From Saprospiraceae bacterium (GTDB lineage Bacteria > Bacteroidota > Bacteroidia > Chitinophagales > Saprospiraceae): a DNA stretch of 60,023 nucleotides. The DNA lies in assembly GCA_028280415.1 (NCBI GenBank), contig JANQLV010000031.1:1-60023 (forward strand). Direction: 5' to 3'. The translations under genes were made by a program, and so were the position numbers. Below the pieces are notes generated by a model. That model worked only from the letters and a program-made list of their open reading frames with translations, was not told the DNA's origin and made no database searches. Position 1 is the stretch's first letter. Each line of letters starts with the position of its first letter. Below are positions 11,274-36,635 of this stretch, piece by piece.

Positions 11274-11380
11274 TGAATAAATACTCCACTCTCTGAATAG
11301 ATATTCCAAGTGCTGAACAAATATTCCTCCTTATTGAATAAATAGTCCGTAGACAAAAGGATTTTTCACCCCCATCTTTG
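11274..11380 (+). promoter_or_regulatory. operator array A: four 16-bp direct repeats before a CATCTTTG -7 element
   Basis: Copies start at 11274 (TGAATAAATACTCCAC), 11294 (TGAATAGATATTCCAA), 11314 (TGAACAAATATTCCTC) and 11335 (TGAATAAATAGTCCGT), i.e. spaced 20, 20 and 21 bp. The -7 element CATCTTTG starts at 11373, exactly 38 bp after the start of the last copy. Transcription would start near 11387, in front of the lipoprotein/barrel pair. The two-turn period and the abutting -33 region suggest an activator binding as a row of protomers on one face of the helix. Confidence 0.85.
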
Positions 11381-11445
11381 CAATGTCTTCTTTAATGAAG
11401 TACAACACAAATATTTCAAAATATCCATTATTAAAAATATTAATC

Positions 11446-11661
11446 ATGTATCAAAAACACCATTCCCTCATAACAACTAAAAGAAGCAGCCTGAAAAATC
11501 TGATCACTTTTTTGGCTCTGGCATTTATCATCATCAACCTTAATGCTTGTGCCAAAGGATACGGTTGCTATACCTCGGAAAAAACAAAATTAGAGGACTC
11601 CTCAGAAACAATAGTAGATACTGGGCAAGACTTATACGCTCCGGAAACAGATTGTAAATAA
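11446..11661 (+). CDS. small lipoprotein of unknown function
   Basis: The frame is open from an ATG at 11383, but that codon lies at the predicted transcription start of array A, so the ATG at 11446 is preferred. This gives 71 residues: a basic N-terminus, a hydrophobic stretch (ITFLALAFIIINLNAC) with a lipobox ending at a cysteine, and a short mature part (KGYGCYTSEKTKLED...) of about 37 residues with acidic character. It is therefore an exported lipid-anchored peptide. The stop lies 27 bp before the barrel gene, so the two form an operon driven by array A. No family is recognised. Confidence 0.65.
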   Translation: MYQKHHSLITTKRSSLKNLITFLALAFIIINLNACAKGYGCYTSEKTKLEDSSETIVDTGQDLYAPETDCK

Positions 11662-11688
11662 TTTAAAAAATATAAACCCTTTTATAAA

Positions 11689-12288
11689 ATGAAAAAGTAT
11701 AATTCCTTCCAATTCCTGATCTGTCTTTGTATTTTTTGTTTTACCAGTCTTAGCCTCTCCGCTCAGTACTATGAAAAAATAGGCTTTGAAAAAGGTGATG
11801 TTGACCTTAGCCTTGGGATCGGTCTGATGCCAACTTTTATTGATAAAAACACCCGGGCGACAATGCCTCCGGTGAGCATGATTCTTACTTATCGCCCTAA
11901 AAAACACCTGGCGGTTTCCTCCTATATCGGATATTCTGCGACTGATTATAAAATGCCAGAAGCTGATAAATCATCCGAGACCTCCGTACCATTAAGTCTA
12001 CGAAACAACTTCTTTGTCACTGGTCTGCGTGGAGAAGGACATTTCATCCGCGACCGCGTAGATTTTTATGGCGGTGGAATGATTGCCTATTGTTTTTCTA
12101 TCAACAATAATGCACAAACGGATCACAATGGCAGAATCGAAAATATAAGAGTAGAATCTTTCTCGGATCAAATCGTTTGGTCAGGCCTGGTTGGAGTAAA
12201 ATATTTGCTAAGTCCAAAAATCGGAATTTACGGAGAAATCTGCTATGGGGTCTCTCTTTTCAACGCCGGTGTAACATTCAAATTATAA
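11689..12288 (+). CDS. small outer-membrane beta-barrel protein
   Basis: The 199-residue protein has a signal peptide (about 1-25, ending LSLSAQ) and then alternating amphipathic strands with short turns: GDVDLSLGIGLMPTFI, VSMILTYRPKKHLAVSSYIGYS, NNFFVTGLRGEGHFI, VDFYGGGMIAYCFSI, IVWSGLVGVKYLLS and IGIYGEICYGVSLFNAGVTFKL. This matches an eight-strand OmpA/PorT-like barrel. The function is not known; its co-transcription with a lipoprotein under the operator array suggests an envelope role. The unit ends in a strong terminator 48 bp downstream. Confidence 0.78.
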   Translation: MKKYNSFQFLICLCIFCFTSLSLSAQYYEKIGFEKGDVDLSLGIGLMPTFIDKNTRATMPPVSMILTYRPKKHLAVSSYIGYSATDYKMPEADKSSETSVPLSLRNNFFVTGLRGEGHFIRDRVDFYGGGMIAYCFSINNNAQTDHNGRIENIRVESFSDQIVWSGLVGVKYLLSPKIGIYGEICYGVSLFNAGVTFKL

Positions 12289-12335
12289 TCCCAGAAAAAT
12301 AGATTTGACAGTATTTGTATTGAGTAAGTATATCG

Positions 12336-12367
12336 TGCGGGCGATCTGTGGATCGCTCGCATTTTTT
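12336..12367 (+). terminator. intrinsic terminator
   Basis: An 11-bp G/C-rich stem (TGCGGGCGATC with GATCGCTCGCA, one G-U pair, loop TGTG) is followed by six T. It closes the lipoprotein/barrel operon. Confidence 0.9.
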
Positions 12368-12405
12368 GTATTCAACAACAAAATGACTTAACGCAGAACT
12401 GCCCT

Positions 12406-12513
12406 TGAACAGATAGTCCACCCTTTTGAACATATACTCCACTCGCTGGATAAATAATCCACCTTTTTGATCAAATATTGAATCGAAAAAACTGCTTTTG
12501 CCCTGCATCTTTG
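12406..12513 (+). promoter_or_regulatory. operator array B: four direct repeats before the HYR giant gene
   Basis: Copies start at 12406 (TGAACAGATAGTCCAC), 12427 (TGAACATATACTCCAC), 12447 (TGGATAAATAATCCAC) and 12468 (TGATCAAATATTGAAT), spaced 21, 20 and 21 bp. CATCTTTG starts at 12506, again 38 bp after the start of the last copy. The predicted transcript begins near 12520 and carries a structured leader of about 170 nt before the gene at 12690. Confidence 0.85.
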
Positions 12514-12539
12514 CATTAAGATAACTTGACACAGTTATG

Positions 12540-12623: not shown

Positions 12624-12689
12624 GTTGCCCACTTCTCTCTCTTTTTCAAAAAATAAAACCAATTGTGATCATCACTTAAATTCAATTCT

Positions 12690-15600
12690 ATGCTTAGATC
12701 TACCCCTAAATTAACCTCGAAAATTCTCTTGTTGAGTTTATGCCTTTCTTTTTTTTATAACCTATCGCTACAGGCACAACCAGAGCCCACAGTTTTTAAA
12801 ACTGTAGAACAGGATATCAATTTCGATATTCAATTACAAGATGCCGTTCTTGATCCCAGTCCTAATCTTGCTATTACCCGGCAGGAAGTCCGGAGATGTT
12901 TGGGAAATGATTTGGATCAATTACAAGCCGGAAACTTAGGTTTTACGATTTTAATAAGTATCATCGAAAACATCCTGGGTGTAAACATCCCGGATGAGGT
13001 TGATGACTTTTTATCGGAAATTGCTGGATTCGCCACAACTATTTCCCCTCCCGCACAAATTAGTATTGATGTCCCAGTTGTAGCAGAAGGATCGGCAGGG
13101 ATTAGCCTGGATATCGAAATGGATTATGGTGGATATATTGAAATCGGTGATATCGGAACAGCTAATGTAGATATCCAGTATCCATTAACCATTAACGTCA
13201 CTGCTCCCGAAGATGAACATTTTGGTTGTGGAGATAAAATCACTATTTCTACCGATTGCGAATTAGGTGATAATGCCATTATGAATATAACCCCGGGTTT
13301 TTATCAGACTGAACTTGGGCCAATTCTCGGAGACCTGAGCCTTGGTCTGGACATTGGAGCGGACCTATACCTTGGAGACTGTGATGTAGGAATTGGAGAC
13401 GCCAATTTTTGTACAAATATTTTTAGAGTATCAGAACCATTACTGGATATACAAACGGTCAATGTACCGAATATACCGCCATTCATTGTAGTCTGTGAAG
13501 ATGTATTTCGGGATGATGCCAATCTGTTTGATTTGACAGAATGTGCTTCGGGTGATCTCATTTTTGGAGATATCATTGATGATTTAGTGGATGCCGGTCT
13601 TGATTTGGATCCCTTGGGTATTGGAGAATTTTCAGATTGTGAAGTAAGTATTAACTCTCCGGATATTCCTTCTTCTGCCAATATCGATCTCCCTGAGTTT
13701 CAGGGTACTTTTAAAAAAGTAAAGCCCAGTGATCTTAGTTTTAGCTCAAATGGTAAAATAATATCCGTCGCTGGCAGCATCGATGATTTTGCAAAATTAA
13801 GCCTCGATCTGCTCTCTTTCCTGGATTATTTTGGTTTGCCTACCAGTTTTAGTGCCGGTAATGGTGCAAGTATTGATCTGGGGGATATTAATCTGGAATT
13901 ATTTTCAGATCTGAATTTAAACTATATTTTCAATCCGACTTTTAGCGCCGATTTTGACCTGGGTATGCCTATGGAATGGGAAGTCAGAGATCCCTCCGCA
14001 GGTAATACTTTGATTAGTTCCAGTAATGGTCCGGAGCAAATTGTACCGGATGTTGTGATCGGTCATGATATTATCGTTTTTTGGCCTGATGATTTGAATA
14101 CTGAAGTTACCGTAAATGAAACATTCAAAGGTGCAGGAGGCCTTAGAACCATATCTTCCCTGGAGTATGGAAACGGTATATCCTTAAATGTTCTCGAAAT
14201 CGTGCTTCCTCCAATCATTGATTTTACATTGTTCGAAGATGTAGAACTAATTAATACCAACATAGCCAATCCCGGAATTATTGAAAATCATACGATAGAT
14301 TTAACTCCTCAGATTCCTTCTGCAACTAATTCTTTTATCCTAAACCCGGACGATATTCCTCCGGTTGTAGCCCCTGTTGACGCGACTGTTGAACTAGACG
14401 CCAATGGAGCTGGTTCTATTGTAGCTGCCGATGTGGTTGATTTTGCAAATAGTTTTGATTTACCAATCGAAGGAACAGGAGCATTAGAGATCGTTTCTCT
14501 CGAACCCAATACTTTCAGCTGTGAAGATTTAGGACCGGTAAGCGTAACCATTACTGCTATTGATGGAAATTGTAATGAAACAGTAAGTACTACTACCGTA
14601 ACGGTTGAAGATAATCTCGCTCCTACTTTTACAGTTCCTGCTGACATTACCATTAGTTGCGCGCGTGACCTGGAAGACTTAACGATAACCGGAGATGTTA
14701 CAGATGCGGAGGACAATTGCACCGTAACGGATATTTCTTTTTCCGATGTGAGCGATGTAACTACCTGCGGCGGTGGTACAGCAATAAGAACCTGGACCGT
14801 TACAGATCAAAGCGATAACGCAACCGTAAAGGTCCAAACAATAATCGTAACCGAACCACCTGAAATCACGATCACCTGTCCGGCTGACCAGGTTATAACT
14901 TGCTTTGAAGATATCGATGCCAATCCGGATAACCTGACTGTCGATAATCCCTGTGGTTTAAGTTTTGTAGCTTATGTCAAACAACCATTTATTAGCGGAG
15001 GTATCCCTGGTTGTGATGGTACAGTTTACACTTACATTTATAAAATCGTAGACGAATGCGGAAGAAAAGCTTCTTGTGAGCAACAATTCCTAATTCAAAA
15101 TGAAGCACCAAATATAAGTGTACCTGCTGATGAAACAGTTATGTGTTTTGAAGATATTGAAGTATCTGTTAGCGATGTTACCGTGGATGCACAATGCGAA
15201 GGTGATTTTGTGGTCAATGTCCTGCCTCCTGCGATCAATGGTGCGTTTAATTGTCCGGGCACAACTTATACCTACACCTATCGCGTAAAGGATTTTTGTA
15301 ATCGTATCGTGGAGACTGAACGGGTATTCACTATTGGAAATAATGAGGCGCCGAGCATCATTGCACCAGTTGATTATACAGTTTCATGCCAGGGAGCTGT
15401 TAATCCGGATAATGCCATTGTCACTACAGCTTGTGGAAATGGACTGGACTATGAGGTAAATGTCAGCGGACCACAATACATTGGTACTCCGGGTTGTAAC
15501 GGCACACAAATGATTTACACGTATACTGTAAGTGATGCATGTGGGCGAAACGCATCTGACCAACAAATTTTAACTATTCAAAATGAGGGCCCTCAAATCA

Positions 15601-16430
15601 ATTGTCCTACAGATTTACAACTATACGGTTGTGATGGTGGTTCATATATCGATATCATTGATGCCTGGATCGCCAGTGTCACTGCCTTTAGTCCCTGTAG
15701 TGGTTCGCTGGAAGTAAACAATAATTTTAGCCCCCACAATATGAACCACTGCTACTGGAACACTTTTACCCCTGTTACTTTTTCTGCAATAGATGAATGC
15801 GGTCAGCAGGTGACTTGTACCGCCAATATTATCTTATTGGATAATGAAGCTCCTACTTTATATAATCGGGCAGAAGACCAATACCAGATTTGTAATGCAA
15901 ATACCTCTGCTAATTTTCAGGAATGGATCGATAATAATGGAAATGCCCTGGCAGTAGACGACTGTTCAGGAGATAATCTGAATTGGTATACCATCCCGGC
16001 TAATCCTGCTTTCAATTGTAGCCAGGAACAAGTTATCACGGTTACCTTCTGTGTGGAAGATGCCTGTGGAAATACTAATTGTACAACAGCCAGCTTCTAT
16101 GCTTTCCAGGCGGGCAATAATGCCGTAGAAACGGATCAACAAATTGAGGCTATTGAAGTACAGTTTCCCGAACTGGAGGTGTACCAAAATCATCCCAATC
16201 CTTTTATGCAGAGTACCACCATTGAATTCGTACTTCCTGAAGCAGGATTGGTTCATTTGAAAGTATTTGACCTTTCCGGAAAATTAGTTTTCAGTATGGA
16301 AAACGAATACAGTTCGGGCTTGCAACAAATTGACTTGCATCGAAGTGATCTAAAAGCAACCGGTGTTTTGTACTATCAGTTAAATGATGGCAGAACAAGT
16401 ATTACTAAGAAAATGATTTTAACGCATTAA
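12690..16430 (+). CDS. giant secreted protein with HYR-like cysteine-paired repeats and T9SS sorting domain
   Basis: The 1246-residue protein has a signal peptide (about 1-30, ending SLQAQ), an N-terminal region of about 500 residues rich in Asp, Ile and Gly beta segments without a recognised family, and from about 550 to 1130 tandem HYR/Ig-like modules. Each module has a pair of cysteines in a pattern like PADxTVxCxEDI... YTYTYxVxDxCGR, for example at about 727-820 and 821-910. Residues from about 1164 (HPNPFMQSTTIEFVLPEAG... GVLYYQLNDG) form a T9SS type A sorting domain. Such proteins are large cell-surface adhesins or matrix components. Expression is predicted to depend on operator array B. 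Confidence 0.88.
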   Translation: MLRSTPKLTSKILLLSLCLSFFYNLSLQAQPEPTVFKTVEQDINFDIQLQDAVLDPSPNLAITRQEVRRCLGNDLDQLQAGNLGFTILISIIENILGVNIPDEVDDFLSEIAGFATTISPPAQISIDVPVVAEGSAGISLDIEMDYGGYIEIGDIGTANVDIQYPLTINVTAPEDEHFGCGDKITISTDCELGDNAIMNITPGFYQTELGPILGDLSLGLDIGADLYLGDCDVGIGDANFCTNIFRVSEPLLDIQTVNVPNIPPFIVVCEDVFRDDANLFDLTECASGDLIFGDIIDDLVDAGLDLDPLGIGEFSDCEVSINSPDIPSSANIDLPEFQGTFKKVKPSDLSFSSNGKIISVAGSIDDFAKLSLDLLSFLDYFGLPTSFSAGNGASIDLGDINLELFSDLNLNYIFNPTFSADFDLGMPMEWEVRDPSAGNTLISSSNGPEQIVPDVVIGHDIIVFWPDDLNTEVTVNETFKGAGGLRTISSLEYGNGISLNVLEIVLPPIIDFTLFEDVELINTNIANPGIIENHTIDLTPQIPSATNSFILNPDDIPPVVAPVDATVELDANGAGSIVAADVVDFANSFDLPIEGTGALEIVSLEPNTFSCEDLGPVSVTITAIDGNCNETVSTTTVTVEDNLAPTFTVPADITISCARDLEDLTITGDVTDAEDNCTVTDISFSDVSDVTTCGGGTAIRTWTVTDQSDNATVKVQTIIVTEPPEITITCPADQVITCFEDIDANPDNLTVDNPCGLSFVAYVKQPFISGGIPGCDGTVYTYIYKIVDECGRKASCEQQFLIQNEAPNISVPADETVMCFEDIEVSVSDVTVDAQCEGDFVVNVLPPAINGAFNCPGTTYTYTYRVKDFCNRIVETERVFTIGNNEAPSIIAPVDYTVSCQGAVNPDNAIVTTACGNGLDYEVNVSGPQYIGTPGCNGTQMIYTYTVSDACGRNASDQQILTIQNEGPQINCPTDLQLYGCDGGSYIDIIDAWIASVTAFSPCSGSLEVNNNFSPHNMNHCYWNTFTPVTFSAIDECGQQVTCTANIILLDNEAPTLYNRAEDQYQICNANTSANFQEWIDNNGNALAVDDCSGDNLNWYTIPANPAFNCSQEQVITVTFCVEDACGNTNCTTASFYAFQAGNNAVETDQQIEAIEVQFPELEVYQNHPNPFMQSTTIEFVLPEAGLVHLKVFDLSGKLVFSMENEYSSGLQQIDLHRSDLKATGVLYYQLNDGRTSITKKMILTH

Positions 16431-16637: not shown

Positions 16638-16723
16638 AAAACGCGAATTTCAAACAACGTTTTATCAAATGTTATAATTTGGCTAAATTAGCAACAAAAC
16701 TATATTTTCATTTGAAGCCGGGA

Positions 16724-19700
16724 ATGGTAAAAACTGTATGCTTATTTTTCTATTGTTTACTGACTAGCCAGGTCATAGGACAGAAGAATTTGTCCCTACC
16801 TAAACTAAGCCCTTCTTCGGTACAGAATTTCAGTAATTATAGCTCTTTCCCTTCTCTCTGCTTTGAGGATGCCTGGGAAGATCAAAGCGGCAGGCTCTGG
16901 CTAAAAGTTTGCGGTGCGACACGTATTAGCAGTAATATCCATTTATTTCAATTTGATGGTTATTCCTTTAAACTGATTGAAGGAGCTTTAGCTCAACTGG
17001 ATGGGAATGATCAATTTATCGATCTTTATAAAAACAAAAAGGTCGTCGGCTTTCTGGACGATCCATCCAAAAAACGTTTATTCTTTTATGACCTTTATAA
17101 AGATCAAATGCAATTCTATGAATTAGCGATTCCCGGTAGGATTGCTCATCTAAAAGTATCCGAACGTCAAAATATCTTTTTGACAGTAAGGCTGGAAGAC
17201 AAAATAATTCTATATAAATGGGAATCCGGACAATTAATAGAGGAAGGCCATTTTAGGGATCGCTCTCTAATTGAAAATAAAACCCTGGTCGATCCCATAC
17301 AATATATCCACCACGATGAAAATGTATTTTGGGCAGCATTGGGTGAAGCGGGACATCTTCTCAGATTTGATAAAAAAAACAAAACGCAAAAAAAGATTTT
17401 ACTGGAAGAATTTCTGGAGCAAGAGCAAGTAAGCAGTTTTTACAAAGTCGGTAGTCCTGATCATCTTCCGGTTAAAGCATTGGTACAAAATGAGAATTTT
17501 TATGTAATGTCGAATTTTAAAAAAACTAATAACTTTTTTAAATGGTACCAACAAAAAAACAACTTTAAACCTGTCGAAAACCTGCCTTCAAACTGGAACG
17601 CCCAAAATATCTTTAATGATGAAATTGGGAACGTTTTATTTCTTTTCAAAGATTCCAGTAAAAAATATCAGGCAATATTGCAAGACATTAAAGGGAATCG
17701 TTTTGATTACTCCGCATTTTTCGAAAATATAGAAGAAAACATTTATCAAATCCGAAGTTCGGACTTTAAAAAACAGGTTATATTCTGTACTACCAGAGGT
17801 ATCGTGGCAGCTAAGGTCAAAGCTTCGGAAGCTATTCGAGGCTTTCTGCCTGACAAACACATTAGGGCAATGGCTGAACTACCAGATGGAAGGATACTGG
17901 TAAATACCCAATATAAAAACCAATATATAATCAACCCTTCTAATAATAGCAGTACCCTTTTAAGCCCACCAGACAGTTGCCGTTTTGCATGGACGAGAAT
18001 CAGCCCGGATAGTTCAGAAAACCTCTGGACTGCCACTAATGATCGTATCTATCAATATAATCCGGCTACAAATACTTGTTTCAATTATCCTTGTAAATCT
18101 GATCTTATCCGATTTTTCTCTTTTATAAATCCACAGGAAGTTGCCTTAATAAATTTAAGGCAGGAATTATACTTTCACGATTTATCAACACAAGAAACCA
18201 GGCCATTTCTGGAAGATGGGAAGGTCAAAGCTTTTCCTGGTTTTGTAAATGAAATCATCTACGATCCAAGAGAATTTTTATGGGTGGCTACTTCTAAAGG
18301 GCTTTTTAAGATTAATTTAAAAACGGGATTATCCGAAGACCTGGGAAGTAAAGGACTATTTCAGTCTTCTCGCTTTTTAAGTATGTACCTGGATAAAAGA
18401 GGACGGCTTTGGTTAGGTACGACATTACATGGAGTATACATTTACGATCCGGAAACCGGTATTATCAAAAACCTGAATAATGAAGATGGATTACCGAATA
18501 ATACAATTGCCAGTATCATAGCAGACGAGGACGGGGATTTCTGGGTAGGTACTTACAACGGGATTTCCCTGGTCTCTCCCGAGGGTAAACTGATTACAAA
18601 TATTTATGAAAAAGACGGGCTCACCAACCGGGAGAATAATCGTTATGCAACTCTAAAAACAAAAGACGGCAAATTATGTATAGGTACAATTAAAGGGCTC
18701 AATTACATCGATCCGCAAAAAGTAAAAGAACGATTAATCGGAAAACAGGACCTGAAAATCTATCTGAATAATCTTCGGCATTTCGATCAAAAACTCGGAA
18801 AGGATACTATACTGGAAGGTAGGCTTTCTAATATAGAAATTTTAAACCTTCCTGCATCCCGAAGATTTCTAAGCATCGATTTTTCTCTTTCCAATTATTT
18901 CAAACCAGAAGAAAATCAGTATGCCTATATGCTGGAGGATATTGATAAAGACTGGATAGATTTAGGGAATCAACATTTTCTCAATCTCAATAATTTACCA
19001 GCCGGGGAATATCGTTTATTGGTTAAAGGTAGTGATGGGCGTGGCAACTGGACCTCGCAACCATTAGTTATTCCAATTCGTGCAGAAGCTATCTTTTACA
19101 AGCAAGTCTGGTTTTATCTACTGGTATCCGCTATCTTTTTTGCTGGTGCTTTCCTATGGATTACCAGGTTGAGAAAGGAAGTTAATAAGGCTACCAAAAA
19201 AATCAGAGCAGATAAAAACGTAATCGAACAGCAGGCACAAAGAGAAAAAGCCAGAGCTGAAAAAATGGAACAGCAAGCCAAACAAATTAAAATCCAGGCA
19301 CAAAAGCTAAGTAAATCTCTTGAAGAATTACAAGAAAAAAATGAAGAGATTCTAATTGCTCAGAAACAATTAATCCAGCAGGAGAAACTTGCCTCCCTAG
19401 GACAAATTACCGCTGGCATTGCCCATGAGATCAAAAATCCGCTCAATTTCGTTAATAATTTCGCCGAAGGCTCTATTGATATTCTAAAAGAATTACAAGA
19501 GGAATTAGAAAATAATAAAGCGCAGTTATCAGAGGACAGCTTCAAGCTTATTCTTTCTCTGATTAATGAGTTATCGCAAAATGCTTTCGATATTCAGTCT
19601 AATGGCGTCCGTGTTGACCGAATTATCCGCAGCATGATGGATCATGCGCGTGGTACTAATTCTGAATTGCGCCCAATCGATCTAAGCCAATTACTTGAAG

Positions 19701-20182
19701 ACAATATTAATCTCGCCTATCATGGTTACCGGGCTCTCGAACCGGGGTTTAATGTTTACATTGAACATGAGAATGATACTTCCATAAAAACAATCAATGT
19801 CTATCCCCATGAGCTGGGAAGGGTCTTTCTCAATCTTCTAAATAATGCTTGTTATGCAGTTGCACAAAAGCAAAAAAAATCAGACTCCAGTTATCGACCT
19901 TTGATAAAGGTCAACACCTATAACAAAAAGGATAGTGTAGAAATCCGAATAAAAGATAATGGTCCTGGCATTCCGAATCAACTCAAAGAAAAAATCTTCG
20001 AACCTTTTTTTACCACCAAGAAAACAGGCTTGGGAAATACTGGTCTGGGTCTATCCATTAGCTATGATATTATTGTCAATCGACACGAAGGAAAACTATG
20101 GGTAGTCTCCGAACCGGATCAGTTCACGGAATTTGTTATTATTTTGCCGAAAAAGGATATAGAGCATATAGCCAATCCCTAG
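16724..20182 (+). CDS. beta-propeller sensor histidine kinase (two-component, no receiver)
   Basis: The preferred ATG at 16724 gives 1152 residues and a clean signal peptide (MVKTVCLFFYCLLTSQVIGQ). The upstream TTG at 16679 overlaps a TATAATTTG promoter-like stretch and is less likely. Domains: periplasmic two-component-regulator propeller (about 25-690; blades such as DKRGRLWLGTTLHGVYIYDPE and DEDGDFWVGTYNGISLVSPEG), Y_Y_Y domain (about 705-789), one membrane segment (about 795-812), coiled coil, HisKA with the H-box His901 in GIAHEIKNPLNF, and HATPase with the N-box (LLNNACYA) and DNGPGIP, FEPFFTTK, GLGLS. Unlike typical Bacteroidota HTCS proteins it ends after the kinase core, so it must pass phosphate to a separate receiver, perhaps those encoded at 27.4-30.9 kb. 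Confidence 0.9.
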   Translation: MVKTVCLFFYCLLTSQVIGQKNLSLPKLSPSSVQNFSNYSSFPSLCFEDAWEDQSGRLWLKVCGATRISSNIHLFQFDGYSFKLIEGALAQLDGNDQFIDLYKNKKVVGFLDDPSKKRLFFYDLYKDQMQFYELAIPGRIAHLKVSERQNIFLTVRLEDKIILYKWESGQLIEEGHFRDRSLIENKTLVDPIQYIHHDENVFWAALGEAGHLLRFDKKNKTQKKILLEEFLEQEQVSSFYKVGSPDHLPVKALVQNENFYVMSNFKKTNNFFKWYQQKNNFKPVENLPSNWNAQNIFNDEIGNVLFLFKDSSKKYQAILQDIKGNRFDYSAFFENIEENIYQIRSSDFKKQVIFCTTRGIVAAKVKASEAIRGFLPDKHIRAMAELPDGRILVNTQYKNQYIINPSNNSSTLLSPPDSCRFAWTRISPDSSENLWTATNDRIYQYNPATNTCFNYPCKSDLIRFFSFINPQEVALINLRQELYFHDLSTQETRPFLEDGKVKAFPGFVNEIIYDPREFLWVATSKGLFKINLKTGLSEDLGSKGLFQSSRFLSMYLDKRGRLWLGTTLHGVYIYDPETGIIKNLNNEDGLPNNTIASIIADEDGDFWVGTYNGISLVSPEGKLITNIYEKDGLTNRENNRYATLKTKDGKLCIGTIKGLNYIDPQKVKERLIGKQDLKIYLNNLRHFDQKLGKDTILEGRLSNIEILNLPASRRFLSIDFSLSNYFKPEENQYAYMLEDIDKDWIDLGNQHFLNLNNLPAGEYRLLVKGSDGRGNWTSQPLVIPIRAEAIFYKQVWFYLLVSAIFFAGAFLWITRLRKEVNKATKKIRADKNVIEQQAQREKARAEKMEQQAKQIKIQAQKLSKSLEELQEKNEEILIAQKQLIQQEKLASLGQITAGIAHEIKNPLNFVNNFAEGSIDILKELQEELENNKAQLSEDSFKLILSLINELSQNAFDIQSNGVRVDRIIRSMMDHARGTNSELRPIDLSQLLEDNINLAYHGYRALEPGFNVYIEHENDTSIKTINVYPHELGRVFLNLLNNACYAVAQKQKKSDSSYRPLIKVNTYNKKDSVEIRIKDNGPGIPNQLKEKIFEPFFTTKKTGLGNTGLGLSISYDIIVNRHEGKLWVVSEPDQFTEFVIILPKKDIEHIANP

Positions 20183-20223: not shown

Positions 20224-20289
20224 CGAATAAATAATGCACCTTTCAGATCAATTAATGCTAATAACAAAATACGCTAAGTCCTAAATTTG
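20224..20289 (+). promoter_or_regulatory. operator array G: two direct repeats and TAAATTTG -7, no gene directly downstream
   Basis: Copies start at 20224 (CGAATAAATAATGCAC) and 20245 (AGATCAATTAATGCTA), 21 bp apart; a much weaker copy may start near 20205. TAAATTTG starts at 20282, 37 bp after the start of the last copy. The predicted transcript from about 20297 enters DNA with no open frame and may be a noncoding RNA ending near the T-run at 20528. Confidence 0.65.
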
Positions 20290-20915: not shown

Positions 20916-21024
20916 ATTCCATATAGTCCACCTTCCGAATAAATAATCCACTCCTAAAGAATAATTGATCCACTTATTAGAACAGATGGTGCGATAGGAA
21001 AACCTTTATTCACCCCCATCTTTG
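20916..21024 (+). promoter_or_regulatory. operator array C: four direct repeats before the beta-helix T9SS gene
   Basis: Copies start at 20916 (ATTCCATATAGTCCAC), 20936 (CGAATAAATAATCCAC), 20958 (AGAATAATTGATCCAC) and 20979 (AGAACAGATGGTGCGA), spaced 20, 22 and 21 bp. CATCTTTG starts at 21017, once more 38 bp after the start of the last copy. Transcription is predicted from about 21031, giving a leader of about 52 nt before the start at 21083. Confidence 0.83.
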
Positions 21025-27080: not shown

Positions 27081-27146
27081 TGAATAAATACTCCACTTTT
27101 TAGAATAAATGATAGGAAGGCTAAGCAATAGCTCTACCTATCTTTG
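27081..27146 (+). promoter_or_regulatory. operator array D: two direct repeats before a short noncoding transcript
   Basis: Copies start at 27081 (TGAATAAATACTCCAC) and 27102 (AGAATAAATGATAGGA), 21 bp apart; TATCTTTG starts at 27139, 37 bp after the start of the second copy. Only about 90 bp separate the promoter from a perfect intrinsic terminator, with no open frame between them. Confidence 0.78.
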
Positions 27147-27152
27147 TAGAGC

Positions 27153-27245
27153 ACTATTCATACAACGAATGTAATCTTTTCATTATTAACTCCTTTAGGT
27201 TTTCAATACCTTAGCTGTACCATTATTGATGGTACAGCTTTTTAA
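27153..27245 (+). ncRNA. candidate small RNA (about 90 nt) under the operator array
   Basis: The predicted transcript runs from a start about 7 nt after TATCTTTG (27139-27146) to the T-run after a perfect 10-bp hairpin. Its single ATG (in GAATGTAATC) is immediately followed by TAA, so no peptide is encoded. The unpaired 5' part contains ACTCCTTTAGG, which could pair with purine-rich ribosome-binding regions. No known RNA family is recognised; the exact ends are inference. Confidence 0.6.
27213..27243 (+). terminator. intrinsic terminator of the candidate small RNA
   Basis: AGCTGTACCA (27213-27222) pairs perfectly with TGGTACAGCT (27230-27239), 7-base loop, followed by TTTT and a second T-run. 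Confidence 0.9.
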
Positions 27246-27256
27246 GTTTTTACAAA

Positions 27257-27322
27257 AGATTATATAATCCACCTCATAGAATAAATAGTACGAAAGGCGC
27301 CCTGTAAATTAGTCTATATTTG
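27257..27322 (+). promoter_or_regulatory. operator array E: two direct repeats before the receiver/kinase/AraC-hybrid operon
   Basis: Copies start at 27257 (AGATTATATAATCCAC) and 27278 (AGAATAAATAGTACGA), 21 bp apart; TATATTTG, a perfect TAnnTTTG, starts at 27315, 37 bp after the start of the second copy. The leader to the ATG at 27383 is about 54 nt. This places the same operator in front of the operon that encodes an AraC-type DNA-binding protein, which suggests autoregulation. Confidence 0.8.
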
Positions 27323-27382: not shown

Positions 27383-27754
27383 ATGAAAATACTGGTAGTC
27401 GATGATGAAAAAAGTGTTCAACGCCTGTATCAACAGCGTTTTAGGAAAGAAGCCCGGGCAGGTAAGGTAGAATTACACTTTGCTTTTTCAGGAGAAGAAG
27501 CACTGCACTTTTTATCCGAAGGTGGTGCAGATGATTTAACGCTCATCCTTTCAGATATCAATATGCCGAAAATGAGCGGATTGGAATTACTCAAGATTGT
27601 GAAAGATCAATATCCTGAACTAAAGGTACTCATTATTACTGCTTATGTTGATAATAATAACCGCAACCAGGCCATTAACCTGGGAGCTAATGACTATCTC
27701 ACTAAACCAATAGATTTCAATGTATTAAAAGAAAAAATTTTCCATATGGTATAA
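27383..27754 (+). CDS. single-domain response regulator (receiver only)
   Basis: The 123-residue protein is a stand-alone REC domain: acidic pocket VVDDE (residues 5-9), phospho-acceptor Asp58 in LILSDINMPKMSG, the conserved Thr in LIITAY (about 84-89) and Lys in YLTKPID (about 107-113). No output domain is attached, so it probably relays phosphate or inhibits a partner by protein contact. It is the first gene of a same-strand operon with a kinase (33 bp gap) and the REC-kinase-REC-AraC hybrid, so it is a natural intermediate between the receiver-less kinases of this region and the hybrid. Confidence 0.93.
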   Translation: MKILVVDDEKSVQRLYQQRFRKEARAGKVELHFAFSGEEALHFLSEGGADDLTLILSDINMPKMSGLELLKIVKDQYPELKVLIITAYVDNNNRNQAINLGANDYLTKPIDFNVLKEKIFHMV

Positions 27755-27787: not shown

Positions 27788-28891
27788 ATGAAACCATTTT
27801 ACAAAGAGGCTCATAATTATTTGCTCTGGGGGGCGCTCTTCGGTTGCCTTTTCCCAATTATTGCTATGTTGATTGAACTATATGCTTCTTCTGGTCCTGT
27901 CAATATCCAACAAATAATCACTATTCAAAAAGAAACACCTTTATTGTGGATCATTGATACCGCTCCTTTCTTCCTTGGTTTTTTTGCTTTTTTGATTGGC
28001 CGGCAGATCGATCGGCTAAAAGGAAAAAATCAGGAAATTCTCGATGCTCAGGCTCAGTTAGTTTTACAGGAACAAATGGCTTCAATTGGAAAAATGACTG
28101 CCGGTATTGCCCATGAAATCAAAAACCCTTTAAACTTTGTCAGAAACTTTGCCGAGGGTTCGACCGAAATGATCGAAGATCTCGAAGAAGAAATAAAAAA
28201 TAATCAATCTGGTTTTGATCAGGAAACTTTTACCTACTTACTCGAACTACTCGGGGATCTCCGACAAAATGCTGAAGATATCAAACACAATAGTGAAAGA
28301 GTTAACCGCATCGTTTTTACGCTGATGGATCATACTCGCGGTAGTAAAGGCAGTGAACAAGCAACTGATATTAATGTCTTATTAGATGAAAATATCAATC
28401 TGGCCTATCACAGTTATCGGGCTAATTATTCTTCCTTCAATTTGGACATTCAAAAAGATTACGATAGCAGCATTCCCATTATAAAAATGAACAGTCACAG
28501 TCTGGGACGAGTATTACTCAATATCCTCAATAATGCCTGTTATGCCCTGAATCAAAAACAAAGCGATTTGAAAAATGATTTTGACCCCCTTCTTCAGGTA
28601 AAAACGAAAAAAGACCGTGATCAATTAATCATAATCATAGAAGATAATGGCTATGGCATTCCGGAAAACATTCGAAAAAAAATATTTGATCCCTTCTTCA
28701 CTACCAAACCAACCGGTTCCGGAAACTCTGGTTTGGGTTTGTCCATTAGTAAAGATATTATTATGCAGGAATATGAAGGCAGTATAGAAGTTGAAAGCGA
28801 GTCGGGATTATTTACTAAATTTATCATCAAAATCCCTTTGAACCAGTGGATAAAAAATACTTCCTCCCTGCTTACTGCAGAGAAGATTTAA
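27788..28891 (+). CDS. membrane histidine kinase
   Basis: The 367-residue protein has two membrane segments (about 13-32 and 56-74) with a short loop between them, then HisKA with His109 in GIAHEIKNPLNF and HATPase with LLNILNNACYAL, DNGYGIP, FDPFFTTKPTGSGNSGLGLS. There is no sensor domain of note. The kinase core is closely similar to those at 16.7, 23.6 and 34.4 kb (same H-box with following NFAEGS), so these are recent paralogues. Second gene of the operon under array E; probably phosphorylates the receiver protein just upstream and/or the hybrid just downstream. Confidence 0.92.
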   Translation: MKPFYKEAHNYLLWGALFGCLFPIIAMLIELYASSGPVNIQQIITIQKETPLLWIIDTAPFFLGFFAFLIGRQIDRLKGKNQEILDAQAQLVLQEQMASIGKMTAGIAHEIKNPLNFVRNFAEGSTEMIEDLEEEIKNNQSGFDQETFTYLLELLGDLRQNAEDIKHNSERVNRIVFTLMDHTRGSKGSEQATDINVLLDENINLAYHSYRANYSSFNLDIQKDYDSSIPIIKMNSHSLGRVLLNILNNACYALNQKQSDLKNDFDPLLQVKTKKDRDQLIIIIEDNGYGIPENIRKKIFDPFFTTKPTGSGNSGLGLSISKDIIMQEYEGSIEVESESGLFTKFIIKIPLNQWIKNTSSLLTAEKI

Positions 28892-30929: not shown

Positions 30930-31664
30930 TCACTTCGACCGGTCACCGAGAATGCCTCGTTTCTTGAAGGTATCAAGGATTAGATCTCGTTGTGCTTTAT
31001 TGGCTGGAATTCGATGCTTCCCGATCCAAAGCATATTGCCTTCGATCAAACTAATCTTGTGCAGTGGAATAATAAAAGAACGATGCACCCTGAGAAAGCC
31101 ATCCTCTTTTAATTCCTCTAGAATATTTTTCAGGCTTTCGCGAATGACAATCTTTTGATTTCCACCAATATAAATTTTCGCATAATCTTTAAAACCTTCA
31201 ATGTATTCTATATCCTTTATTGCAATTTGAAAAACCTTTTTATCTCCGCGTAACAGAATCGTTTTTTCTAAGGCCAGTTGCTTATCAAGTGGATTACTAC
31301 TTTGCAATAACTGCTTTTTCTCTTCACATTTTTGAATCGCTCTGTAAAAACGTTCAAAAGAAACCGGTTTTAATAAATAGTCTGTAGCATTAAGATCATA
31401 ACTTTTAATTGCATATTTTTCGTAAGCCGTAATATATACGACTTGCGTTTCCTGCGGAATCAACTTTTTTGCTTTTAAACCATTGATTTCTGGCATATTG
31501 ATATCAAAAAAAGCGACATCCACAGGTTCCCTGCTTAAAAAATCAATAGCTTCCAGAACGGATAAAAATGTGTTCTTTAATTCAACTGTTGCAATTTTCG
31601 CACAGTGCTTTTTAATCAGCTCCAAAGCTAAAGGTTCGTCATCTACAGCAATACATTTGATCAT
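30930..31664 (-). CDS. LytTR family response regulator
   Basis: The 244-residue protein has a receiver (about 1-120; VDDEP at 7-11, Asp54 in VAFFDINMPEING, Lys in YLLKPVSF) and a C-terminal LytTR DNA-binding domain (about 140-240; IEYIEGFKDYAKIYIG, FLRVHRSFIIPLHKI, IPANKAQRD). Its start overlaps the stop of the kinase gene by 4 bp, so the two are translationally coupled. Its stop directly abuts the stop of the convergent AraC hybrid with no spacer. LytTR proteins also bind direct repeats about two helical turns apart, so it is the second candidate for the operator arrays. Confidence 0.93.
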   Translation of the reverse strand: MIKCIAVDDEPLALELIKKHCAKIATVELKNTFLSVLEAIDFLSREPVDVAFFDINMPEINGLKAKKLIPQETQVVYITAYEKYAIKSYDLNATDYLLKPVSFERFYRAIQKCEEKKQLLQSSNPLDKQLALEKTILLRGDKKVFQIAIKDIEYIEGFKDYAKIYIGGNQKIVIRESLKNILEELKEDGFLRVHRSFIIPLHKISLIEGNMLWIGKHRIPANKAQRDLILDTFKKRGILGDRSK

Positions 31665-32674
31665 GAATCTAAATTTAAATAAAGTTTAGCGTGATAAATG
31701 TCATCCTTTATCCAAATATCGAGTTCATATTTACCGGGATAAGTCAATTCCAGTATTTTCTTTAAGTTTTTGTTCCCCAAGCCAGATTTCGGCATTTTCT
31801 CTTTTGCAATATGATTGGAAACCAGATACCTAAACCCCGCCTCGAAGGGTTCGAACTCGATATTGATTTTTTGATCCGCTTGTAATAAATTGGAATGCTT
31901 GAAAGCATTTTCTACAAAAGACAAGAGAATAGTTGGGCTCACCAAAAAATCCGCTTCGGGATCGGAAATGCGGGTAATAATTTTACTGTCTGCCTGATCA
32001 ACCCGAAGCTTTTGAAAATCAATATAGGAACGAATGAATTTCAACTCTTCCAAAATTGAGATTTGGAGGGCAGAAGAATTATTAAGCAGGTAGCGCATAA
32101 TAAAGGAAAGCTGTAAAATAGCTTCGGAAATCTTATCCGACTTCATCTCTGCCAAAGCATATAAGGTATTAAAAGCATTGTGTAAAAAATGAGGATTAAT
32201 TTTTGCCTTGATTGCTTCCAGCTCAGCTTTCTTTACCGCCTCTTTTAATATCGCCTGATTCAGCCGATATTCATTATATTGTTCAATCAAGCGGATTCCG
32301 GTAGAAAAGACAATAAATATAATGATGGTTATAGTACCGGAAGACGCAGATTTAAGGATTTTAGCAAGATCAGCCCCTTCTTCAGTGTTCCAGCTATGGA
32401 AGGACCTTATCCCTATCGATAGTAATAAACCAAATATCAGTAATAAAAAAACAGCCCCAAAGAACCGGAGCATCTGCCTTTGTTTAATAATAAATCTCGG
32501 CGTGATAATCAGATAATTAATATAAAAAATTATCCCTATTTGCAATAAAAGCAATATTTGAAGCAAAGCAAATTTACCAAAAGGTAAATAGAGATAATTC
32601 CCTCTTTGAGAAAGGAAAATAAACGTAGAAAATAATAACCAAGAAATAATGTGAATTATAGCCTTTCTTGACAT
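31661..32674 (-). CDS. LytS/YehU-type sensor histidine kinase
   Basis: The 337-residue protein has four hydrophobic segments in the first 130 residues (about 8-22, 36-57, 70-89, 112-127), a helical linker, and a His_kinase domain with His162 in INPHFLHNAFNTLYAL, followed by a HATPase with VENAFKHS and GLGNKNL. This is the usual partner of LytTR regulators in Bacteroidota. The predicted minus-strand promoter contains CATCTTTG at 32696-32689, only about 15 nt before the start codon, without the repeat array. Confidence 0.92.
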   Translation of the reverse strand: MSRKAIIHIISWLLFSTFIFLSQRGNYLYLPFGKFALLQILLLLQIGIIFYINYLIITPRFIIKQRQMLRFFGAVFLLLIFGLLLSIGIRSFHSWNTEEGADLAKILKSASSGTITIIIFIVFSTGIRLIEQYNEYRLNQAILKEAVKKAELEAIKAKINPHFLHNAFNTLYALAEMKSDKISEAILQLSFIMRYLLNNSSALQISILEELKFIRSYIDFQKLRVDQADSKIITRISDPEADFLVSPTILLSFVENAFKHSNLLQADQKINIEFEPFEAGFRYLVSNHIAKEKMPKSGLGNKNLKKILELTYPGKYELDIWIKDDIYHAKLYLNLDS

Positions 32675-32792: not shown

Positions 32793-32828
32793 ACCGAAAG
32801 CTATTAATTTAATTCCGAATACACTCTT

Positions 32829-33974: not shown

Positions 33975-34380
33975 CTTGTTATATTTTTAGGAAATAAAAA
34001 GGCCGTTTTTCAAAACGATCCGCACATTATATACGATTTGGATGATTCGTTCATATTCAAAGATATGATTCGTTTATCTGAGGATGAAATAAAAGAGATG
34101 TTCCCCCGATAATTGGAGATAAAGTAAAGGTTTCTGGCTTTAAGAGGTCTGTTTTGAAGGGTTGAGAAGCTATTATATTATTTCAATATTTGCACTTAAT
34201 CCCATTTCTTCCTTTAATCTCGATCCAAGCTATAAAAGAACAGTAGCCCACTGCGGAATATAGATTCCTCTTGTCTGATCAAATAGTGAGAAAGATCAGG
34301 CATCTTCTCCCCTAACTATGTATAGGAAAGGCTTCTTCACCTTATGGAAATGAAATGTCTTGATATCTGTTTTTCGAATA
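33975..34380. other. intergenic region with promoter of the protease and array H
   Basis: It holds the minus-strand promoter of the protease gene (TATCTTTG, 34065-34058) and the degenerate plus-strand operator array H. No open frame of interest is present. Confidence 0.55.
34237..34320 (+). promoter_or_regulatory. operator array H: degenerate repeats firing towards the 3' end of the TPR kinase
   Basis: Copies: AGAACAGTAGCCCAC (34237, one base deleted), GGAATATAGATTCCTC (34255) and TGATCAAATAGTGAGA (34276), the last two 21 bp apart. TAACTATG (one mismatch to TAnnTTTG) starts at 34313, 37 bp after the start of the last copy. A transcript from about 34328 would run antisense into the 3' end of the kinase gene on the minus strand. 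Weaker than A-E, but the spacing rule holds. Confidence 0.5.
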
Positions 34381-36525
34381 TCAGGTATCCAGCCTTAAAG
34401 GCAATTCAATAATAAATTCGGTGTATACTCCTTCTTCGCTCTCAACATTAATTTTTCCGTCATGCAAAGTAGAAATGATTTCATAACTAATAGATAAACC
34501 CAGGCCGGTGTTTCCTGAGCCAGTTGGTTTAGTTGTAAAAAAAGGATTAAAAATTTTATGTTTCACCTGTTCTGGTATACCCGTTCCATTATCTCTGATC
34601 TCAATGAACAAACGCTCTCCAAGCTGCCGGGTTCTTATAAATATACCGGGTTGATAATCCTCCTGCTCTATGGCCTTTTTTTGATTTATGGCATAACAGG
34701 CATTATTGATGAGGTTCAAAATGACGCGCCCCAGTTCCTGGGTATAGACGTATATCTCAGGCAGATCATTATCAAACTCATAATTAATTTTGGCGAAGAA
34801 ACTTCGATGTGTAGCCCGGTATCCCTGGTAGGCAAAATTGGCATTAATGCGAACCAGTTCGTTGATGTTTTCTTTACTTTGCTTTCCCTCGGATTCCCGG
34901 GTATGGTTCATCATATTATTAATGATTTGATCTACCCGCTTACCACTATTTTGAATATCAACTAGATTGAGTTTAATATCTTTGATATCTTTTAAAACTA
35001 TTTCTTTTTTATGCTCCGAAAGTGGTGCTTGTCCTTCCCCCAGGTTTTCATTGACCTCTTCCAATAATTCAATAGAATCCTCGGCAAAATTTGTAATAAA
35101 GTTGAGTGGGTTTTTGATTTCATGGGCAATACCGGCAGTAAGTTGGCCGAGGGAAGCCAGCTTTTCCTGAACGACTAATTGATCTTGCGCTTTAATAATC
35201 TCTGCATTCATCTGGGTTACTTCCTTATTTTTTTGCTGTACTTCTTTGAGTAAAGCTTCTTTAACTCTTTTGGATCTGTATTGAAAAAAAGCAAAAAAGA
35301 TCATGGTAAGTACTACACCGACAAGTATGAATACTATAAAATTTCGGGAACGCAGAGAAGCTTCGAATCTTAGCTGATTCGTTTCAATAATATTTTCCCG
35401 GCGCAGGGAATCCTGAAATACCTGATTTCGAAAATCCAGCAATTGTAATTGCTTTTTCACATCATCCGACTTAATGCTATCATTAATGATTTTATTTTGC
35501 TCTAAAAAGTCAAGAGCGAACTCGCTCTGGTTAAGCTTTTTGTACAACTGATAAAGTTCGGCTGTACAAGTTTCCTGATTTATCAAATGCGCTCCGGCGC
35601 GAGCGTATTGTAAAGCTTTTTCATAATTCGCAATAGCGCGATTGGTATTTTCCTTTTGTTTTTCAATTTGACCAAAAGCAATATATGCTCCGGTGATTTC
35701 ATCATTTAAGCTCAGTTCCAGAGCAGTAGCAAGCGTTTGATCAAGATAAGCTTCGGCTTCTTGCAAATCACCAATTTTTAAATAAAGTTTCCCCAGACTT
35801 AAAGCGGTTTGACAAGCGTTTGATTTTGAGAAGTGCCGAAAAATGTCCAGAGATTTTTGGTAGTAATACAAAGCTGAATCCAGTTGATTCTCTTTTTGAT
35901 AGACATCTCCCAGATATTTGAGATTTGTTCCAACTCCAATAGTATCATCCGTATATAAGTCTACCGCTTCAAAATATTTTTGCTTGGCCTGAGCTAATTT
36001 GTTTTGACTAAGATAAATAGAGCCATACATTTCATTGATATAATTTTTATCGTATTTAACACCCACAGAATCACCGAAAGCTTCAACGTGTTGAATTATT
36101 TCCAAAGCTTTAGACAACATCCCTCCCTGCTCATAAGAATGCGCAAGGTTTTCGATGATGTTGATATACATAGGATGATCTCCGGCTTCCAGCACCAATT
36201 TTGCCCCCTCGCTAAAATGCATTCTGGCTTCATTCAGATTGCCCCGAATACCATGCGTTACTCCCATTTGATTATTGATATAGCCCTGGCTTCTGAGGTC
36301 ATTATGTTCTTGAGCAAACTCCATCGCTCCGCTAAGCAACTGGTATGCACTGTCCGGATCTGAGAATACAAAAGTTTCCCAGGTGTAATTAGTATAGCCT
36401 ACCACTCTTTCAAAAGAAGATAAAGAATCATTTTGCCATTTCAACAACTCGGGATGCTCTGCTTCCTGAGCAATTATGAAATTCAAAAAAAACAGATACA
36501 GGATTGAAAAGAGTATTGCCTTCAT
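34381..36525 (-). CDS. TPR-containing sensor histidine kinase
   Basis: The 714-residue protein has a signal peptide (about 1-19), periplasmic tetratricopeptide repeats (about 60-345; GMLSKALEIIQHVEAFGD, QLDSALYYYQKSLDIFRHF, NTNRAIANYEKALQYARAGA), one membrane segment (about 397-415), a coiled coil, HisKA with His468 in GIAHEIKNPLNF and HATPase (LINNACYAI, DNGTGIP, FNPFFTTKPTGSGNTGLGLS). TPR sensors of this type are common in Bacteroidota. The kinase core is the fourth member of the paralogous set in this window. No receiver is encoded next to it. Single-gene unit. Confidence 0.92.
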   Translation of the reverse strand: MKAILFSILYLFFLNFIIAQEAEHPELLKWQNDSLSSFERVVGYTNYTWETFVFSDPDSAYQLLSGAMEFAQEHNDLRSQGYINNQMGVTHGIRGNLNEARMHFSEGAKLVLEAGDHPMYINIIENLAHSYEQGGMLSKALEIIQHVEAFGDSVGVKYDKNYINEMYGSIYLSQNKLAQAKQKYFEAVDLYTDDTIGVGTNLKYLGDVYQKENQLDSALYYYQKSLDIFRHFSKSNACQTALSLGKLYLKIGDLQEAEAYLDQTLATALELSLNDEITGAYIAFGQIEKQKENTNRAIANYEKALQYARAGAHLINQETCTAELYQLYKKLNQSEFALDFLEQNKIINDSIKSDDVKKQLQLLDFRNQVFQDSLRRENIIETNQLRFEASLRSRNFIVFILVGVVLTMIFFAFFQYRSKRVKEALLKEVQQKNKEVTQMNAEIIKAQDQLVVQEKLASLGQLTAGIAHEIKNPLNFITNFAEDSIELLEEVNENLGEGQAPLSEHKKEIVLKDIKDIKLNLVDIQNSGKRVDQIINNMMNHTRESEGKQSKENINELVRINANFAYQGYRATHRSFFAKINYEFDNDLPEIYVYTQELGRVILNLINNACYAINQKKAIEQEDYQPGIFIRTRQLGERLFIEIRDNGTGIPEQVKHKIFNPFFTTKPTGSGNTGLGLSISYEIISTLHDGKINVESEEGVYTEFIIELPLRLDT

Positions 36526-36598
36526 ATTCCAGATTTGTAACTAAAATTAATCTTTTTCAAACATTAAGCAAGGCGCATAGCTCAATATCAAAATAAGC

Positions 36599-36635
36599 TG
36601 AACAGATAATCTACCATTTTGAACAAATAATCCAA
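36599..36635 (+). promoter_or_regulatory. operator array F: two good direct repeats without a clear -7 element
   Basis: Copies start at 36599 (TGAACAGATAATCTAC) and 36620 (TGAACAAATAATCCAA), 21 bp apart and on the plus strand. At the expected distance (36657-36658) the sequence CATTGTAT is a poor -7 match. The nearest plus-strand gene is the redoxin lipoprotein at 36840. It may be a decayed promoter or a binding site with another function. The rest of the 36526-36839 gap shows nothing else. Confidence 0.6.

Follow-up and report, generated by a model that had tools for sequence, protein, structure and literature searches.

Class II activation by AraC at araI1–I2 uses directly repeated half-sites separated by two helical turns, of which the proximal one contacts the −35 region. 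LytTR sites, too, are direct repeats, with a period of roughly 21 bp, or two turns. The closest described systems are the hybrid two-component system (HTCS) regulators of Bacteroides thetaiotaomicron, whose predicted operators were described in 2013 as direct repeats of two conserved sites with an average period of 21 bp; the HTCS_Man operator has 16-bp sites and a 5-bp spacer (PMC3878776). Many hybrid two-component regulators are carried by Bacteroidota; one Bacteroides genome has 36, with motifs predicted for 16 (PMC3878776). In Bacteroidota promoters, the −7 element is TAnnTTTG and a TTTG occurs around −33 (PMC7366714). We describe eight tandem arrays (A1–A8) of a 16-bp word in a Saprospiraceae bacterium (assembly GCA_028280415.1), located in a stretch, called the window below, that is one entire contig (JANQLV010000031.1) of 60,023 bases from a 7.1-Mb genome of 81 contigs. 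Very probably, the arrays are tandem operators of an AraC-type hybrid regulator encoded among them (P0001), which would activate its own operon and neighboring surface-protein genes.

Results

Tandem arrays at a fixed distance from promoter elements

A first-pass annotation of the window had placed the word in tandem arrays at eight positions, and all eight exist (Table 1). With up to three mismatches, the window contained 21 copies of the word, whereas 100 shuffles contained 6.4 on average and 12 at most. Genome-wide, 63 copies with up to two mismatches were found against 27 for a reversed-pattern control; 12 of the 63 lay in the window, including all eight matches with no or one mismatch. 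A two-copy matrix made from the array letters only of 12 sites in related genomes, and scanned over the window only, scored the eight window pairs at 27.0–35.4 and the best non-array place at 13.2; on 40 random 60-kb sequences, its mean maximum was 12.3 and its highest score 18.7. The repeats are real, which confirms the initial observation. All eight arrays are on the plus strand and between genes taken as real, the intergenic share of positions 9852–40721 being 13%.

A −7 element 37 or 38 bp after the start of the last copy had been claimed for seven of the eight sites. The strict box, [TC]AnnTTTG, was present at this distance in six, and the count becomes seven if the one-mismatch element of A7 is included; A8 (last copy at 36620) had no −7 element at the fixed distance. 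Among the 21 arrays of three genomes (this one and two relatives, G016 and G126), TAnnTTTG or CAnnTTTG occurred at 37–38 bp in 19, with A7 and A8 as the exceptions, and the background frequency of [TC]AnnTTTG is 0.00085 per position. The elements thus agree with the −7 element recognized by the primary sigma factor of Bacteroidota, and five of the 19 are the variant CATCTTTG, including those of the three four-copy arrays of the window. Around −33, no TTTG stood out in alignments by eye; the end of the last copy lies there and is GNGAAAG-like in many arrays. Hits from an E. coli-type promoter scan did not exceed those in shuffles. The data support the earlier description of direct half-sites of the AraC kind, spaced by two turns and adjoining the −33 region of promoters of the Bacteroidota type.

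The proximal pair was spaced by 21 bp in all 21 arrays with the matrix aligned at 21, and in 20 of them in an array-only scan (L094 scored best at 20), with upstream steps of 20–22 bp; as in HTCS operators, two sites are directly repeated about 21 bp apart. By the matrix, 16 of the 21 arrays have two copies, five have four, and none has three. A self-similarity count of 52 arrays at a threshold of 9, where the false-positive rate is 6.7% per step, gave one copy in 12 arrays, two in 30, three in one (A4), four in eight, and five in one; three of the 52 (G318, G150, and G154) resemble chance matches and were kept in the count, and the rule undercounts, scoring as one copy four arrays (G126_b, G126_c, G104, and G134a) that have four by matrix or by eye. 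At a threshold of 8 the count was noise (1 to 13), and at 10 it gave 29 arrays with one copy, 21 with two, and two with four. These counts, which vary with the rule, are suggestive of copies coming in pairs.

The last copy is distinct in sequence. It ended in TCCAC in none of the 21 arrays, and the penultimate copy did so in nine of the 13 relatives' arrays and four of the eight in the window; a last copy ending in TGNGA was found in 11 of the 13 arrays from relatives, compared with two of the eight from the window. The first-pass annotation had also linked four copies to a distance of 38 bp and shorter arrays to 37 bp. This holds for the six strict sites of the window but is ruled out as a rule by the relatives, because both four-copy arrays of G126 have 37 bp, and a two-copy array of G016 (L090, 10015) and the C178 array of G126 have 38 bp.

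An exact pattern of the array geometry matched 28 places in 17 of 398 family genomes, compared with four for a reversed control. The full [TC]AnnTTTG was present in 23 of the 28 matches, compared with 102 of 1003 TTTG occurrences in the window. Nine matches were in G016 and G126, and among the other 19, eight had an AraC-domain match in the locus. At another family locus (L255; G199:C167 near 5930–5990), four copies read by eye alternate between two types, GTCCGnnCT.TCCAC and GGCTGAAAA.TCCAC, looking as if two regulators or a heterodimer might bind there.

Arrays in related genomes

We searched 150 family genomes with R1, a sequence-only model built from the eight window sites with the promoter letters included. 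Strong multi-array clusters were found in three genomes: the window's own (G000), G016, which belongs to the same genus (ten hits, all on contig C110), and G126, from another genus (six hits on four contigs). The contigs holding the P0001 ortholog carried all of the G016 arrays and one of the six in G126. Conversely, when seven stretches from G016 and G126 were scanned with an array-only matrix made from the window sites, the 12 top pairs all had [TC]AnnTTTG at 37 or 38 bp. Because the stretches had been picked with R1, which contains promoter letters, this result is not wholly free of selection. A 13th pair, on the minus strand of L091 near 2090, had no −7 element. Arrays in G016 lie on both strands and are aimed at genes in both orientations, so that the plus-strand-only arrangement noted earlier is local to the window.

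The G016 arrays precede genes for large, probably secreted proteins, an O-methyltransferase, a glycosyltransferase, a Y_Y_Y kinase, and a receiver–kinase–hybrid operon, and the locus retains the receiver, kinase, hybrid, Y_Y_Y kinase, and tetratricopeptide-repeat (TPR) kinase. In G126, arrays precede a kinase adjoining the hybrid and a TonB-dependent receptor, among others, and downstream of a variant array of the ACAATA type are genes for a transporter and a periplasmic binding protein. Four array-preceded G016 proteins (L089 7530–9206 and 10825–14235; L090 10111–14580 and 14812–19617) have a common C-terminal tail with NATDRSxTWNDRN and NA[ST]DRSxTWNxRN-like repeats; their spacing gives a dockerin-like impression, and no Pfam hit fell in the tail of any of the four.

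Being multi-copy and clustered in one 26-kb stretch, the repeats might instead be a mobile or structural element. This reading is strongly disfavoured, to the point of being negligible, by the −7 phase kept in 19 of 21 arrays from three genomes, the G016 arrays aimed at genes in both orientations, and the failure to find such an array elsewhere in the genome among the best 150 candidates scored.

Of 38 loci with weaker array hits elsewhere in the family, 15 had an AraC-hybrid domain no more than 1.5 kb away (counting distinct places, 12 of 34), compared with none of 41 control loci, all of which came from the window's own genome; two further weaker hits (G085 C7 and G084 C40) are outside the 38. 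Arrays close behind the AraC-domain end of hybrid genes were seen at L065, L066, L075, L226–L231, L256, L262, L263, L266, L267, and L270, where they presumably drive the next gene.

The arrays appear to be confined to one locus

When R1 was run on its own genome, the eight sites scored at E 1.7e-9 or better and the best hit outside the window at E 0.009, although this test is circular. We therefore consider R2, a model built from the 13 sites of G016 and G126 only and thus out-of-sample for the window. On the 7.1-Mb genome, the nine best R2 hits (E 6e-4 or better) all fell in the window and covered every one of the eight sites. Over the full length from array to promoter, seven sites reached E 2e-6 or better, and A8 had E 6e-4 without the promoter part. 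The tenth hit, also in the window, had E 0.09; elsewhere, the best hit had E 0.11, which is chance level. In these searches the best first-look candidates of each genome were scored (150 for R1 and R2 on the own genome, out of 3738 for R2; 33 in the family search; 12 in the R2 search that included G123 and G245), and weak sites may be missed. Of the 63 word matches, 51 came from the rest of the genome; the 22 of these that were scanned for partner copies gave weak ones only (best pair score, 17.5), and one outside match (L013) had no neighboring copy in the stretch read. A dispersed, genome-wide regulon is not supported, since no array-like hit above chance was found off the contig among the best 150 candidates. 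The arrays seem to form a local regulon that spans about 26 kb.

The arrays are most likely read by an AraC-type hybrid

The window encodes two candidate readers, the REC-HisKA-HATPase-REC-AraC hybrid P0001 (REC, receiver domain; 28947–30929) and a LytTR response regulator (P0002; 30930–31664). Sequence comparisons make P0001 the most likely reader. In the 150 family genomes, its closest matches by identity were P0001 itself in G000 (100%) and proteins in G016 (70%) and G126 (60%), the other two genomes with array clusters; named relatives among its closest matches were mostly from Saprospiraceae and Bacteroidetes. The arrays, like HTCS operators, precede genes that are associated with a hybrid of the AraC type.

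The operator type also tends to go with the hybrid's DNA-binding domain. In 18 hybrids paired with an array beside or near them, with operator types assigned by eye, the first helix-turn-helix (HTH1) helix went with the operator type in 15 pairs: all seven hybrids with GAAYARATA-type operators had MSY[PS]V in HTH1, and all eight with ACAATA-type operators had MSR followed by other residues. The three remaining pairs, L076 (GAAGAGATA, MSQTQ), L235 (GGCTGAAAA, MSQRQ), and L087 (GAACGCACA, MSRPQ), fall outside both types. The second helix-turn-helix (HTH2; mostly DPK[YF]FSR) and the TCCAC part of the operator varied little. In a tree built from the kinase and receiver regions, the operator type requires two changes, and a single change sufficed in none of 200 bootstrap trees; P0001 and two close relatives group with ACAATA-type proteins, yet share operator and helix with the others. 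Because of this HTH1–operator association, binding by the AraC domain of the hybrid receives indirect support.

Full-length P0001 relatives in G027, G045, and G037 (52–53%) are accompanied by a different operator, of the ACAATA type, in the same layout. In the stretches from G023, G058, G027, G045, G037, and G014, a period of 20–22 with a −7 element at 36–39 was found at nine places, compared with one to five in 11 control settings. The accepted arrays were in G027, G045, and G037, with one in G014. Not every full-length relative thus has an array nearby: none was accepted in G023 C21, G058 C74, or contigs C56 and C188 of G014.

A LytTR regulator as the binder, which the earlier annotation had allowed for, has in its favor a gene inside the array cluster and an array period that fits known LytTR sites. 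The LytTR gene does not, however, co-occur with the arrays: in G016, the ortholog (69%) lies on contig C81, where neither model listed hits, and arrays and AraC hybrid are both on C110, whereas G126 has arrays and a best LytTR match of 37%, in an assembly that is 81% complete. Furthermore, the array-only scan found no array before the window's own LytTR–kinase pair, and the operator type tracks the AraC HTH1 helix in the 15 pairs mentioned above. We consider LytTR binding very unlikely. We give about as little credence to another AraC-type or unrelated protein encoded elsewhere reading the arrays with the hybrid as a mere neighbor. The genome does have at least two other AraC hybrids (three matches at E 1e-100 among the best eight of 163 candidates), but above-chance arrays were found on this contig only among the best 150 candidates scored, arrays of the relatives lie on the ortholog's contig (all in G016, one of six in G126), and similar arrays in other family genomes are often close behind an AraC hybrid gene.

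Genes of the locus

In line with the first-pass annotation, arrays precede surface-protein genes and the signaling operon itself (A1, A2, A4, and A6); A6 precedes the receiver–kinase–hybrid operon (Table 1). The barrel gene behind A1 probably shares a transcript with the small open reading frame before it. P0001 has Pfam matches to Response_reg (two), HATPase_c, HisKA, and HTH_18. In their catalytic regions, the kinases starting at 16679, 23593, 27788, and 34381 are closely paralogous.

Candidate sources of the noncoding transcripts proposed in the first-pass annotation are A3, A5, and A7. No convincing gene follows A3 before 21083. The A5 promoter and a strong terminator hairpin within about 100 nt of it (27139–27247) sit between the stop codon of a Y_Y_Y kinase gene and A6, and a small RNA under regulator control or an attenuated leader is a possible output. 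No convincing gene lies ahead of A7 either, which points into the 3′ end of a minus-strand kinase gene (34381–36525); its region (34255–34320) may give an antisense transcript or be a decayed site. A8 lies in a divergent gap between that kinase gene and a thioredoxin-fold gene. Rfam at gathering scores revealed no known RNA family behind the arrays. The sole Rfam hit in the window was a DUF805b cis-regulatory RNA (3128–3162, minus strand), just above an S74-peptidase/type IX secretion system (T9SS) gene (1323–3107), and no tRNA was found in the window. Two similar Kelch-repeat T9SS-sorted proteins (39495–40721 and 49030–50262, minus strand) lie outside the array region and lack arrays, and a TPR-CHAT protein (5223–8099) is flanked by T9SS-sorted surface proteins.

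Table 1. Arrays, −7 elements, and genes of the array region (window coordinates).
Feature	Position	Strand	Details
Array A1, four copies	11274..11350	+	copies at 11274, 11294, 11314, 11335; word scan, matrix
−7 element of A1	11373..11380	+	CATCTTTG; 38 bp from last-copy start 11335
Small lipoprotein-like open reading frame	11446..11661	+	likely first A1 target; internal ATG 11446; start and lipoprotein nature predicted
Outer-membrane beta-barrel-like protein	11689..12288	+	OMP_b-brl_2 E 1.3e-4, below curated cut-off
Array A2, four copies	12406..12483	+	copies at 12406, 12427, 12447, 12468; word scan, matrix
−7 element of A2	12506..12513	+	CATCTTTG; 38 bp from last-copy start 12468
1246-aa surface protein	12690..16430	+	A2 target; HYR_4C domain, T9SS C-terminal sorting tail; Pfam
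Reg_prop/Y_Y_Y sensor histidine kinase	16679..20182	+	without REC or AraC domain; Pfam
Array A3, two copies	20224..20260	+	copies at 20224, 20245; matrix
−7 element of A3	20282..20289	+	TAAATTTG; 37 bp from last-copy start 20245
Array A4, four copies	20916..20994	+	copies at 20916 (degenerate), 20936, 20958, 20979; matrix; three copies under the stricter self-similarity rule
−7 element of A4	21017..21024	+	CATCTTTG; 38 bp from last-copy start 20979
758-aa T9SS-sorted surface protein	21083..23359	+	A4 target; Por_Secre_tail E 1.5e-13
Second Reg_prop/Y_Y_Y sensor histidine kinase	23593..27045	+	paralog of 16679–20182; Pfam, comparison
Array A5, two copies	27081..27117	+	copies at 27081, 27102; matrix
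−7 element of A5	27139..27146	+	TATCTTTG; 37 bp from last-copy start 27102
Terminator-like hairpin	27213..27239	+	about 100 nt into the would-be A5 transcript; z −3.7
Array A6, two copies	27257..27293	+	copies at 27257, 27278; matrix
−7 element of A6	27315..27322	+	TATATTTG; 37 bp from last-copy start 27278
Stand-alone response-regulator receiver	27383..27754	+	first gene after A6
Histidine kinase	27788..28891	+	HisKA-HATPase
Hybrid P0001	28947..30929	+	REC-HisKA-HATPase-REC-AraC; proposed array reader
LytTR response regulator P0002	30930..31664	-	disfavored as reader
His_kinase-family sensor	31661..32674	-	adjoins the LytTR regulator
Array A7, two copies	34255..34291	+	copies at 34255, 34276; relatives' model, matrix
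Imperfect −7 element of A7	34313..34320	+	TAACTATG; 37 bp from 34276; one mismatch, read by eye
TPR-histidine kinase	34381..36525	-	paralogous to the locus's other kinases
Array A8, two copies	36599..36635	+	copies at 36599, 36620; relatives' model, matrix
Thioredoxin-fold (AhpC/TSA) protein	36840..38297	+	downstream of A8

Discussion

The proposed operators would work as follows. One 16-bp copy would be the footprint of one AraC DNA-binding domain, with HTH1 reading the GAAYAAATA part and HTH2, a turn further along, reading TCCAC. A pair of copies at a 21-bp spacing would hold one regulator dimer, and four copies would hold two. The proximal pair would be fixed, its last copy ending at the would-be −33 box, 37–38 bp before TAnnTTTG or CAnnTTTG, and a promoter without a clear −33 box would rely on the bound regulator contacting sigma (class II activation), the proximal copy being shared between regulator and sigma. 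Signals would reach the regulator through the paralogous kinases and the stand-alone receiver of the locus in a putative phosphorelay; because of their paralogy and neighborhood, the kinases at 16679, 23593, 27788, and 34381 probably feed the same receiver. The hybrid could also read the arrays and repress, or both repress and activate, with the proximal copy blocking sigma until phosphorylation. A protein bound at the last copy, which abuts the −33 region, could indeed exclude sigma, and at least one Bacteroides HTCS acts as a repressor (PMC11253607). We consider this improbable, since the absence of a clear −33 box and the fixed 37–38 bp distance suit an activator-dependent promoter better than repression.

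Several observations weigh against activation of the locus by P0001 through these arrays. None of the 28 exact-pattern matches lies in the window's genome, and none of the window's arrays matched that pattern. Two genomes of the same genus (G123 and G245) had no R2 match at E 0.001, and no convincing array was found in the stretches read around the full-length P0001 relatives (53–54%) of G023 (C21) and G058 (C74). The 18 hybrid–array pairs include arrays that are near rather than beside the hybrid, and their types were judged by eye; L087 is a partial exception, combining an MSR helix with a GAAC-beginning operator, and if it is counted as GAAY-type the association for that type becomes seven of eight. 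The tree provides only about two independent operator-type events. A8 lacks a −7 element and A7 is antisense into a kinase gene; therefore, not every array is an evident promoter. Finally, activation as the direction of control is something we infer only. Taken together, the overall interpretation of the first-pass annotation is partly supported, and the reading of the arrays as activating operators of P0001 remains the one we favor.

As a tentative extension, which we would sooner doubt than accept, the arrays may be instances of a quantised promoter module in Saprospiraceae. Whole dimers would bind, so that arrays would lengthen two copies at a time, to two or four and seldom to an odd number; the proximal copy, with a second half other than TCCAC (typically TGNGAAAG), would be co-occupied with sigma at 37–38 bp; and an exchangeable HTH1 on a near-constant HTH2–TCCAC scaffold would form a regulator–operator code across paralogous systems. 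The site, the promoter distance rule, and the helix–operator association do recur in other family genomes. If these three hold, sequence could be used to predict the regulons of such regulators in environmental genomes; copies that come in pairs would also predict regulator stoichiometry on DNA.

Among known systems, the arrays resemble araI1–I2 of AraC in their direct half-sites two turns apart but differ in their Bacteroidota promoter and in having up to four copies. They resemble LytTR sites as direct repeats near two turns, but the co-occurrence does not fit. The likeness to Bacteroides HTCS operators is closer: the dimensions are the same, the sites lie near the regulator gene, and the helix-turn-helix is of the AraC type (PMC3878776). 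The site architecture is thus already known as the HTCS kind, described for Bacteroides in 2013 (PMC3878776), and the regulon can be called undescribed, as the first-pass annotation had it, only in the sense that the open-licence PMC literature, supplements aside, yielded no description of four-copy HTCS arrays or of this variant, and no paper on HTCS-type sites in Saprospiraceae; one retrieved report, PMC12125979, concerns a Vibrio regulator and was set aside.

P0001, like a canonical HTCS protein, has HisKA, HATPase_c, receiver, and AraC helix-turn-helix domains in one chain, and its second receiver shows SHIP, matching the S/CHIP portion of the S/CHIP-DK motif (PMC11253607). Unlike canonical HTCS proteins, it has an N-terminal receiver and no in-chain periplasmic sensor with a membrane segment. 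There is no room for a sensor, because the receiver occupies residues 5–119 and HisKA begins at 152, and the highest 19-residue hydropathy (1.53) falls within the HATPase part; the sensors are separate, paralogous kinases of the locus. The targets here include T9SS-sorted surface proteins and signaling genes, and no susC/susD pair was among the Pfam hits of the window (main genes only). Whereas the parts of PMC3878776 considered here describe two-site motifs only, the arrays here have two or four copies, a changed proximal copy, and a fixed −7 distance. What is new in this Saprospiraceae locus is therefore the copy number of mostly two or four, a proximal copy that loses TCCAC, the fixed promoter register, a sensor-less hybrid with separate paralogous kinases, and surface proteins as targets.

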